From Porticoccaceae bacterium (GTDB taxonomy: Bacteria; Pseudomonadota; Gammaproteobacteria; Pseudomonadales; Porticoccaceae): 51,229 nucleotides of DNA. Location of the stretch: assembly GCA_018654575.1 (NCBI GenBank), contig JABILI010000018.1, positions 1-51,229 of the forward strand, read 5' to 3'. Shown here in pieces: positions 27,419-29,540 of the stretch (position 1 is the first letter of the stretch; each line of letters starts with the position of its first letter). The notes beneath the pieces are model-generated. The model had not been told where the DNA came from, did no database searches, and saw only the letters and a list, made by a program, of their open reading frames with translations. Position numbers and translations under genes: made by a program.

Positions 27419-27907
27419 CTACAGCTTAAAGATACCCTGCTCAGGACAGTTTGCCAAGAGTTTGGCGATACTTTGGCCTTCAGGGAGCGATAAATTTGGA
27501 TCAAGGTCTAAAAGAGGCGCCAAGACAAAGGCGCGATCTCTTATTCTGGGGTGGGGGATGGTAAGTCTTGGCATTTCTATCGTCAGAGTACCGTACATAA
27601 GCATGTCCAGATCAAGGGTTCTTGCGCCCCAGTGAATAGATCGCTCTCTCTCATGTTTTTGCTCGATAAGCTGTAACTGATCTAGTAACGCTAGTGGTTC
27701 AAGCTGTGTCTTTATCAGCGCTGCAGCATTGATATAGTCAGGTTGAGACCCAGGACCAATGGCTTTAGTTTTATAGTTAGAAGAAACGTTCACCAGTGTT
27801 ATTTGGCTATGATTTTCTAGGGCTTTGAGGGCTTGCTCAAGTTGCTCTTTTGGTTCACCCATCGTTCCACTAAGGTTACTACCCAAACCAATGTAGACCA
27901 TTTGCAT
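27419..27907 (-). CDS. folK: 2-amino-4-hydroxy-6-hydroxymethyldihydropteridine pyrophosphokinase
   Basis: FolK/HPPK (162 aa) transfers pyrophosphate from ATP to the pterin alcohol in folate synthesis. Features: VYIGLGSNL at the start, RTLDLDMLMYG with the Mg2+-binding Asp pair (about 93-103), and IPHPRIRDRAFVLAPL. Its ATG overlaps the pcnB stop by one base (TAATG), implying coupled translation. pcnB-folK is a widely conserved pair. Confidence 0.96.
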   Translation of the reverse strand: MQMVYIGLGSNLSGTMGEPKEQLEQALKALENHSQITLVNVSSNYKTKAIGPGSQPDYINAAALIKTQLEPLALLDQLQLIEQKHERERSIHWGARTLDLDMLMYGTLTIEMPRLTIPHPRIRDRAFVLAPLLDLDPNLSLPEGQSIAKLLANCPEQGIFKL

Positions 27908-29271
27908 TAGTCTTTGGAATCCTTTTTATGTCGCGGGCGTCTGCTGCGGCGCCTTCTATTGCCGGTATTACTTATTAACTCGGACATTTTCAGTTTCTGC
28001 TCTTCGTCAGCTTCTTGATACTGGGTCCACCAATCACCGAGCCCGGCTAAATCTTCCCCAGCCTGCTCACGCAATAAAATAAAGTCATAGGCTGCACGAA
28101 AACGTGGATTTTCTGATAAGCGTTTGGCGCGATGTCCACCACGCCGTGGCAGCTGTAACTGTAAGTCCCATATTTCGCGCATTGGCATAGTAAAACGACG
28201 AGGAATCGCCGTCACCGAGATTTGCTTAGCGATCACTTCACCTGCAGCTTTGCTTAGGGCGTAAGTCGGAGAACTACCTCGATCAGTATAATATGCTGCG
28301 AGCTTTTCAACAGCTGGCCATAGTAAGGCGGCATAGATAAATGCAGGGGTCACTCTTTTGTTCGAGCTAATACGAATATCAGTATTAATAAAAGCTTGTT
28401 CTATTAACTTAGCAGCATTATTGCTGCCATCTTTGATTAAATGAGCAACTTGAGGAACAAGTTGATCGAACAGTTGGTGATCGCAAAGCAGCTTATATGT
28501 TGAGGCACCATTGCCACTCATGAAGAGTTTAAGCGTTTCGTCAAAAAATCGTGGTGGGGAGATATGAGCAAGATCACGGGCACGCTTACTCATTGGTTTA
28601 GCTGTGCGTGGTTCGATACTGAATCCAAGCTTTGCGGTAAATCTCGCTACACGAAGAAGGCGCACTGGGTCTTCTCGAAAGCGTGTTGCGGGGTCGCCAA
28701 TCATACGTATGGTACGTTTATTTATATCCTTTAGGCCGTCAGTGAAATCGTGAATAGTATTGTCACTGGGATCGTAATAAAGCGCATTAACTGTAAGGTC
28801 TCTTCGCTCTGCATCGTCGGTGACTGAGCCAAACACGTTGTCTCGCGTTAACATACCGCTCTTACTTTGCTGTCGAAGGGGTGCGTTCTTTTTCGATGCT
28901 TTAATATCGCTATCTTGATTTGAGCGAAAGGTTGTAACCTCGATTAGCTCGCGGCTGAATTGAACATGGACTATCTGGAATCGTCGGCCGATGATTCTGG
29001 AGCGCCGAAATAGTGATTTAATCTCAGTTGGTTCTGCATTGGTGGCGACATCAAAATCTTTTGGTTTTAACCCCAACAAAAGATCGCGGACGGAACCACC
29101 GACAACATAGGCCTCAAACCCAGCATTTTGAAGTGTTTCCACCACTTGATGCGCATTGCGACTAATCATTTTAGGCGTGAGACCATATTGTCTAGCGTCG
29201 AAGACAGTTCGATCTGAAAAATCAGATTGAGATTGTTTTTTGTCAAAAAATTTAATAATGCGTTCAAGCAT
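27907..29271 (-). CDS. pcnB: poly(A) polymerase I
   Basis: PcnB (454 aa) adds 3' poly(A) tails that mark RNAs for decay. The nucleotidyltransferase head shows VVGGSVRDLLLG and the DxD pair in KDFDVAT (about residues 58-78), then RRFQIVHV and VNALYYDP. A basic, Arg-rich C-terminus (NTGNRRRRSRRPRHKK) is typical of bacterial PAP rather than CCA-adding enzyme. It starts with a plain ATG, unlike E. coli pcnB, which uses AUU. It heads the minus-strand unit folK-dNK-panB-gpx, downstream of the cbrB terminator. Confidence 0.94.
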   Translation of the reverse strand: MLERIIKFFDKKQSQSDFSDRTVFDARQYGLTPKMISRNAHQVVETLQNAGFEAYVVGGSVRDLLLGLKPKDFDVATNAEPTEIKSLFRRSRIIGRRFQIVHVQFSRELIEVTTFRSNQDSDIKASKKNAPLRQQSKSGMLTRDNVFGSVTDDAERRDLTVNALYYDPSDNTIHDFTDGLKDINKRTIRMIGDPATRFREDPVRLLRVARFTAKLGFSIEPRTAKPMSKRARDLAHISPPRFFDETLKLFMSGNGASTYKLLCDHQLFDQLVPQVAHLIKDGSNNAAKLIEQAFINTDIRISSNKRVTPAFIYAALLWPAVEKLAAYYTDRGSSPTYALSKAAGEVIAKQISVTAIPRRFTMPMREIWDLQLQLPRRGGHRAKRLSENPRFRAAYDFILLREQAGEDLAGLGDWWTQYQEADEEQKLKMSELISNTGNRRRRSRRPRHKKDSKD

Positions 29272-29389: not shown

Positions 29390-29419
29390 AAAAAGGGAAT
29401 GCCTTTCGACATTCCCTTT
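29390..29419 (-). terminator. rho-independent terminator between cbrB and pcnB
   Basis: On the minus strand AAAGGGAATG (29410-29419) and CATTCCCTTT (29392-29401) form a perfect 10-bp stem with an 8-nt loop. The stem runs directly into TTTTT (29390-29394). It ends transcription after cbrB, or the small RNA unit described here, and before pcnB. Confidence 0.85.
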
Positions 29420-29506
29420 CAATGAGCCTTAAGGCCTGAGCCTATCGAACCCTCGCAATCAAATATTATTATTTATTGTTATTATTATCCAGGCAATTGG
29501 CCTAGT
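29390..29506 (-). ncRNA. candidate CrcZ-like small RNA between cbrB and pcnB
   Basis: The 362-bp cbrB-pcnB gap holds no coding frame. It does hold a small transcription unit on the minus strand: a promoter at 29513-29540, a 5' hairpin (29491-29503), an A-rich single-stranded tract (29461-29490, ATAATAATAACAATAAATAA) with several AAnAAn units, a palindromic GCCTTAAGGC (29426-29435) and a strong terminator. In Pseudomonas the same gap encodes CrcZ, an RNA that titrates Hfq/Crc through AAnAAnAA motifs under CbrB control. Location and motif agree; sequence homology could not be tested. Length would be about 117 nt, shorter than CrcZ. Confidence 0.5.
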
Positions 29507-29512
29507 AGGGCC

Positions 29513-29540
29513 ATTTTAAGTAAAAATGAAATTACATCAA
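29513..29540 (-). promoter_or_regulatory. putative promoter of the small RNA
   Basis: Minus strand TTGATG (29535-29540), 16-bp spacer, TAAAAT (29513-29518): a sigma-70-type promoter with start near 29506. No TGGCAC-N5-TTGC sigma-54 site with correct spacing is seen in the gap. Confidence 0.45.

Follow-up and report, generated by a model that had tools for sequence, protein, structure and literature searches.

A predicted CrcZ-derived small RNA gene between cbrB and pcnB in SAR92 bacteria, in whose genomes Crc was not found

A small RNA (sRNA) gene was found between a cbrB-like gene and pcnB in the window, that is, in the whole stretch of 51,229 nucleotides analysed, which belongs to a draft genome of 2.42 Mb (G000) as its contig C51. 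Comparison with relatives confirmed, as far as sequence can, that the gene is real and discrete, with a promoter and a terminator of its own. Our best explanation is that this sigma70-type sRNA of about 118 nt derives from a CrcZ-like ancestor activated by CbrB and sigma54 and would now work independently of Crc as an RNA with one Hfq site, a reading for and against which the balance appears to us about even. It draws on the conservation of the gene, promoter and structure, the constraint on the AAN tract, the core shared with sister genera, the loss of the GAFTGA loop and of Crc, and the presence of hfq. Transcription, Hfq binding, base pairing and targets of the sRNA are inferred. The features of the locus are collected in Table 1.

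Table 1. Features of the cbrA-cbrB-sRNA-pcnB locus in the window
Feature	Position	Strand	Evidence
Predicted sRNA, ~118 nt, CrcZ-derived, Hfq-binding type	29390..29507	(-)	Covariance models, same coordinates exactly; synteny; alignment
Sigma70-like promoter	29513..29540	(-)	-35 TTGATG 29540-29535, 16-bp spacer, -10 TAAAAT 29518-29513
5' hairpin H1, 6 pairs	29489..29505	(-)	Double changes in 6/6 pairs (36 sequences)
AAN-repeat tract AATAATAACAATAAATAATAAT, where one Hfq hexamer is predicted to dock by its distal face	29465..29486	(-)	
GATTGCG core	29454..29460	(-)	Alignment of 28 sequences
Middle hairpin H2, two helices	29424..29452	(-)	Double changes in 9/9 pairs; cells paired 79.0 and 96.1%
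Terminator hairpin H3 and T tail	29390..29420	(-)	Double changes in 8/13 pairs; fold
pcnB, poly(A) polymerase	27907..29271	(-)	TIGR01942, E 1.2e-153
CbrB-like response regulator, 419 aa, AAA+ without GAFTGA loop	29634..30893	(-)	Pfam; alignment
CbrA-like sensor kinase, 975 aa	30890..33817	(-)	HisKA, HATPase_c, PAS

The two flanking genes lie on the same strand as the sRNA and are separated by 362 nt. From 5' to 3', the sRNA comprises the 5' hairpin, the AAN-repeat tract, the GATTGCG core, the middle hairpin and the terminator, and its 5' end was inferred to lie at 29507, about 6 nt past the -10 element. The original prediction had described AAnAAn-type repeats, stem-loops and a perfect 10-bp terminator in the cbrB-pcnB gap, and all of them were recovered: the AAN tract is present at 29486-29465, the stem-loops are all on the (-) strand, and the perfect 10-bp block AAAGGGAATG/CATTCCCTTT lies inside the terminator hairpin, whose T run ends at 29390. 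This terminator is absent from the list produced by the terminator scan of the window, probably because its T run was counted as part of the stem. The predicted fold of a 141-nt region was more stable than 200 of 200 shuffles (z -4.09); the signal was weaker in a 261-nt slice (z -2.47, with 3 of 200 shuffles equally good). In the 141-nt region, the 5' part of the sRNA folds otherwise than in the shorter slice that gives the 5' and middle hairpins.

The presence of the RNA in relatives was followed in a PcnB-based set of 56 genomes, made up of 35 from the same genus (G000 included) and 21 others, one for each other family of the order. The genus was placed in the SAR92 clade of the Porticoccaceae through its named relatives HTCC2207, MOLA455, H231 and H921. 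A first covariance model, built from 16 sequences and run with strict filters, matched 29 of the 35 genus genomes, with one match apiece, and none of the 21 other families; the conservation of tract and hairpins for which the original prediction had called was found. Among the six misses, the gap is 89 nt in G001, G023 and G031, a contig ends inside the terminator in G028, and the genomes G012 and G034 are 71 and 78% complete. When these genomes were searched for the RNA elsewhere with a second model, G001, G028 and G012 gave weak matches only (E 0.019 or worse), and G023, G031 and G034 gave nothing. At named loci, 36 of 80 matched, all among the 44 of the SAR92 group (L088-L131), where the eight misses comprise five loci with an 89-nt gap, HTCC2207 and MOLA455 included, one with a 166-nt gap and two at which the contig ends. 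The strains H231 (L109) and H921 (L107), whose records are not labelled as MAG, carry the gene. Many named loci are contigs that also stand in the genome set, so that this count is not independent of the genome count. The second model matched 71 of 112 genomes of the family, in 7 of 14 genera, including 37 of the 50 listed genomes of the genus itself. In an order-wide draw of 293 genomes, 8 matched, of which 7 belong to the Porticoccaceae; the eighth, from another family (G138), has the match in the same cbrB-pcnB gap behind a sigma54-like promoter (by eye).

In HTCC2207, MOLA455 and their kin (L113-L116, L118, L122), no RNA was seen before pcnB and a CbrB without GAFTGA is retained; these loci occupy neighbouring rows in the PcnB tree. 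As this subclade is without the RNA at this place, the RNA is dispensable.

The structure was supported by compensatory changes. In an alignment of 36 sequences, which was fitted to the model and so leans towards the structure, 89.5% of the cells pair and 23 of the 28 pairs have changes on both sides. The double-change cells amounted to 155, compared to 43.8 after shuffling (0 of 500 shuffles as high), and to at most 31 when the partner was slid by 1-3 columns. In the unfitted alignment of 16 sequences, double changes were detected in 11 of the 28 pairs (1 of 500 shuffles as high) and in 38 cells compared to 13.8 after shuffling (0 of 500), and further pair types were not significant (62 of 500). 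An unguided consensus fold of 28 sequences recovered the terminator alone, H1 being missed because the 5' hairpin is misaligned in that alignment. It is the comparative evidence, 29 of 35 genus genomes together with 23 of 28 covarying pairs, that raises the feature above chance. The proposal of a small RNA gene at the Pseudomonas crcZ position is supported.

The promoter match of the window taken alone is not above chance, with 2 promoter-like sites compared to 1.6 expected. Among 28 aligned genus sequences, the -10 element agrees with TATAAT at five of six positions in 20, at four in 6 and at three in 2; the best -35 element agrees with its consensus at 3-4 of 6 positions, and the 16-bp spacer is kept in 20 of 28. 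Inspection of the window gap by eye revealed no sigma54-like TGGCA-N-TGC motif, and the single sigma54-like pattern among the 44 SAR92-group stretches is probably a chance match. The promoter is sigma70-like and not sigma54-like, as had been proposed, with TTGATG-16-TAAAAT mostly conserved in the genus. This conservation also bears on the possibility that there is no independent gene here and that the RNA is a cis element, either the 3' end of cbrB, a leader of pcnB or a processed fragment of cbrB read-through. The RNA does sit between two same-strand genes, and read-through from PcbrB into crcZ has been reported (PMC8871633). Nevertheless, we consider such an origin unlikely, given the mostly conserved promoter, the RNA's own terminator, its persistence at 11 sister-genus loci without a CbrB match and its doubling in 5 of 7 matching genomes of genus g32 (see below). 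With a conserved promoter of its own, a covarying fold and a terminator, the locus has what is expected of a terminated sRNA gene.

In many sequences, a short frame opened by ATGGATTGC was noticed by eye, and one could imagine it as a tiny translated ORF (ATGGATTGC...) with an A-rich enhancer ahead of it. However, the window's clade and L006-L010 have no ATG at this position, the frame and its length vary, and a Shine-Dalgarno sequence was not seen (all by eye); moreover, the sequence changes fit RNA pairing. As the start codon is not conserved, this mini-ORF was rejected, and we regard it as very improbable.

The CbrB of the locus had been described as degenerate, in agreement with which the GAFTGA loop is absent from the window protein and from all 36 CbrB proteins found at the 44 SAR92-group loci. 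Six of these 36 proteins are 183-191 aa long, without the AAA+ domain. The proteins that were aligned lack the GAFTGA loop and a segment further on, and those of full length have an altered Walker B acidic pair. At the non-SAR92 named loci, CbrB was found in 32 of 36, always with GAFTGA and followed by a TGGCA-N-TGC sigma54-like motif. CbrB proteins that have no AAA+ are scattered over the PcnB tree, in four or more separate positions. Neither the CbrA-like kinase of the window nor that of G117 (see below) matched a Pfam family of the SSF/SLC5 type at E values up to 5, and the transporter domain may be highly diverged.

The half-sites TGTTAC/GTAACA described for CbrB (PMC6296734) served as a model for a site resembling TGTTTCnAAAAGTAACA. 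In gaps from related loci, exact half-sites numbered 16 compared to 3.0 expected, and a spaced palindrome of this kind is present in 12 of 36 SAR92 gaps, in 10 of them 116-118 nt before the AAN tract. CbrB control may thus survive in some SAR92 members. As a general control of the SAR92 RNA it was discarded; the window's clade is without the palindrome, so that CbrB control of the window copy is unproved.

CrcZ, with CrcY and CrcX, of Pseudomonas and Azotobacter is the nearest comparison. The window RNA likewise follows cbrB and precedes pcnB on the same strand, is rich in AAN and ends in a terminator, and its sister genera show a CbrB/sigma54-type promoter. In contrast to the 407 nt and six A-rich stretches of P. 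aeruginosa CrcZ (PMC4063720), it has about 118 nt and one tract, together with a sigma70-like promoter, a conserved core and a middle hairpin, in a genome where Crc was not found. Compared with what defines CrcZ, it has the location and lacks the several A-rich stretches and the CbrB-activated sigma54 promoter; with Crc found in none of 35 SAR92 genomes, it would not sequester Hfq together with Crc.

Membership of the CrcZ family (RF01675) was set at a covariance-model match of at least 95 bits. The search with this family that the original prediction had suggested came out negative: RF01675 matched nothing in the window or the genome, nor anything up to E 10 in a 411-nt region. Rfam as a whole, at gathering and permissive thresholds, gave nothing credible on the window or on the tested sister-genus loci. 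In the control, RF01675 matched none of 14 control genomes but 5 of 20 loci (L034, L040, L136, L146, L148); it recognises Pseudomonas-type loci and, at 110.8 bits, L040. As it matches neither the window RNA nor the tested sister-genus loci, the RNA is not placed in the Rfam family; we file it outside that family, as a putative variant of CrcZ related by position, core and descent. Of the claim that it is a minimal analogue of CrcZ, the position and the AAN repeats stood, joined by the sister core behind a sigma54-like promoter; the Hfq/Crc sequestration did not.

The descent was approached through 20 loci, fetched from the 34 matching genomes of other Porticoccaceae genera and picked by model match. 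All 20 have pcnB nearby; 5 have a GAFTGA CbrB, 4 a CbrB lacking AAA+, and 11 no CbrB match, a GluQRS-like gene (FAPSPTG/FAPSPSG, by eye) lying upstream in 10 of these 11. A sigma54-like promoter was seen in six, the five GAFTGA loci and G117, and in all six GGATGGATTGC directly follows the AAN tract. This 11-mer form of the core is found at 15 of the 44 SAR92-group loci, and in none of 21 other-family gaps or 36 outgroup gaps. The second-model scores of the six loci were modest (E 3e-6 to 2e-4), and the link between the genera is built on these scores, the position and the one 11-mer. Picking loci by model match makes a common core in part a consequence of the selection, which does not apply to their shared location ahead of pcnB. 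We read the sigma54-driven RNAs of the sister genera as homologous to the sigma70-type SAR92 RNA. Since the SAR92-type core stands downstream of a sigma54-like promoter in these RNAs, and a GAFTGA CbrB lies next to five of them, descent of the SAR92 sRNA from a CrcZ-like RNA driven by CbrB and sigma54, relatives of which would persist in the sister genera, is the best reading. In the PcnB tree (50 rows), SAR92 and the neighbour genus g35 form one clade (100/100).

Two further arrangements were observed. In G117 (genus g33; L204/L279), CbrB has 210 aa and no AAA+, yet the sigma54-like promoter TGGCACAGAACCTGC remains, so that the genome represents either an intermediate stage of the uncoupling or a mistake in the assembly. 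At L197, L198, L200, L201 and L203 of genus g32, which have no CbrB match, two tandem copies of the RNA precede pcnB with starts 263-325 nt apart, which is the doubling mentioned above.

Crc was searched for with a Pseudomonas-type query (P0001) that matches the solved P. aeruginosa Crc (4jg3) at 3e-159. It was not found in any of the 35 SAR92 genomes, where the best matches (E 2e-16 at best, identities 24-31%) resemble the second, ExoIII-type matches of Crc-bearing genomes; that of G000 is ExoIII-like by eye. Among the 21 other families, 17 gave matches below 1e-55 and two others gave weaker ones, at 5e-36 and 3e-28. In the family survey, Crc was found at E 1e-20 or better in 38 of 112 genomes and 10 of 14 genera, none of the 38 belonging to SAR92 (g1), g35, g23 or g29. 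In the five SAR92 genomes examined, pyrE is adjoined by an rph-like gene (named by eye) with no crc beside it; in three relatives, a Crc-like gene lies beside pyrE. In 14 genomes (G061-G066, G083, G108-G114) of genera g26, g32 and g27, Crc is accompanied by another Crc-like protein that is more distant, with 27-32% identity and E values from 1e-29 to 1e-39. Both hfq and rpoN are present in G000, and each was found in 54 of the 56 genomes. As Crc was not found in the SAR92 genomes, the AAN tract is retained without it, and the sequestration of Hfq/Crc by AAN motifs, as originally proposed, cannot be the mechanism here. Phe25 of Hfq was considered as an explanation and dropped, as it occurs in 12 of 12 SAR92 proteins but also in 5 of 11 other-family proteins from genomes with Crc hits.

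Across 28 aligned sequences, the tract has 14 A positions, of which 12 are invariant and the other two are kept in 26 and 27 sequences; none of the seven N positions is invariant, their commonest letter accounting for 54 to 89%. The longest unbroken AAN chain has 5 units in the window RNA and 4 to 7 over the 28 sequences. Since an Hfq hexamer accommodates six ARN triplets (PMC6422490), the predicted capacity of the tract is about one hexamer, which would dock by its distal face. In partition-function calculations the mean unpaired probability of the tract was 0.83 over the 28 sequences and 0.57 in the window RNA. The core is retained as GATTGC in 22 of the 28 sequences and missing in 6. A free single-stranded core was not borne out: its mean unpaired probability was 0.54, and only 2 of the 28 sequences have it fully open in their best fold; in the predicted folds it is often paired with the AAN tract.

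If the window RNA titrates, it would share the decoy principle of RsmY/RsmZ and CsrB, which titrate RsmA/CsrA through GGA motifs, not Hfq. A minimal CrcZ of this sort, titrating Hfq by its AAN tract without base pairing, is a possible reading that falls somewhat short of probable. P. aeruginosa CrcZ titrates Hfq through the distal face (PMC4063720), and in the SAR92 RNA no part is as constrained as the A positions of the tract, the tract being mostly unpaired and the core not. However, one Hfq site per RNA would make a costly sponge, with no need of a conserved non-A core or a covarying middle hairpin. A regulon was looked for in samples of gene starts with crude gene calls (G000, G091, G018). 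There was a weak excess of AANAANAA in G018 (32 of 321 genes compared to 21.8 shuffled, 2 of 200 shuffles as high), and one of five G018 genes with the longer AANAANAANAA motif resembles a sugar transporter (by eye). The A-rich motif was not clearly enriched in G000 (21 of 252 genes compared to 15.7, 15 of 200 shuffles as high) or in Crc-bearing G091 (10 of 344 compared to 9.3), and neither were AANAANAANAA and (AAN)5 at the sampled gene starts, so that no clear A-rich regulon emerged in the G000 sample.

The class II sRNAs of enterics (MgrR, ChiX, CyaR, McaS) are similar in other respects: the window RNA is short and has an AAN tract, a U-tailed terminator and a possible pairing site. ChiX has an AAN motif. 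In class II binding, reported for MgrR and ChiX among others, the sRNA contacts both the distal and the proximal face of Hfq (PMC6239178), and the window RNA has in its sequence both the AAN/ARN motif and the U tail of the terminator that mark this class. Unlike them, it lies at a different locus and has a different origin, its Hfq docking is predicted only, and no class II family was among the Rfam matches of the region. With the tract on the distal face, the U tail could dock on the proximal face and give a two-face grip as in class II sRNAs. Bound in this manner, the RNA would block access of A-rich mRNAs to Hfq in the way of CrcZ, with no need of Crc, and the conserved core beside the tract may be a pairing site offered to target mRNAs. 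A class II sRNA accounts for the single AAN site, the U tail, the non-A core and the covarying middle hairpin somewhat better than a pure sponge would, but this fit is weakened by the half-paired state of the core. Tentatively, and with more doubt than belief, we suggest that in SAR92 the activator lost its contact with sigma54 and Crc disappeared, and that the RNA became shorter, passed to a sigma70 promoter and took on the role of a Crc-free class II base-pairing sRNA; in related genera, the RNA would have persisted even after CbrAB vanished from the locus.

According to PMC8871633, cbrA-cbrB-crcZ is known from Pseudomonas and Azotobacter only, and the CbrAB/CrcZ system is called exclusive to the Pseudomonadaceae in the literature. 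Among the papers listed on marine CrcZ, on CbrB in Halomonas and on SAR92 sRNAs, with subscription papers largely outside, none reports this RNA in its title or abstract opening. In the 21 other families (L033-L053), 17 of the stretches before pcnB hold six or more AAnAAnAA matches, and a sigma54-like motif precedes pcnB in 17, that of L053 being in apparent coding sequence and probably spurious. One of these genomes, G054, strongly matches the Pseudomonas CrcZ model. In another, L044 (G039) contains within one cbrB-pcnB gap two sigma54-like promoters, each followed by A-rich repeats (by eye), an apparent tandem CrcZ-like pair. CrcZ-like genes therefore seem to be widespread in the order.

Within this one marine lineage, a CrcZ-type system can be seen coming apart, with changes of activator, sigma dependence and partner while the RNA predicted to dock on Hfq stays. 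SAR92 offers a natural test of the role of CrcZ-type RNAs in the absence of Crc, and for some strains of these ocean bacteria the genome records are not labelled as MAGs.
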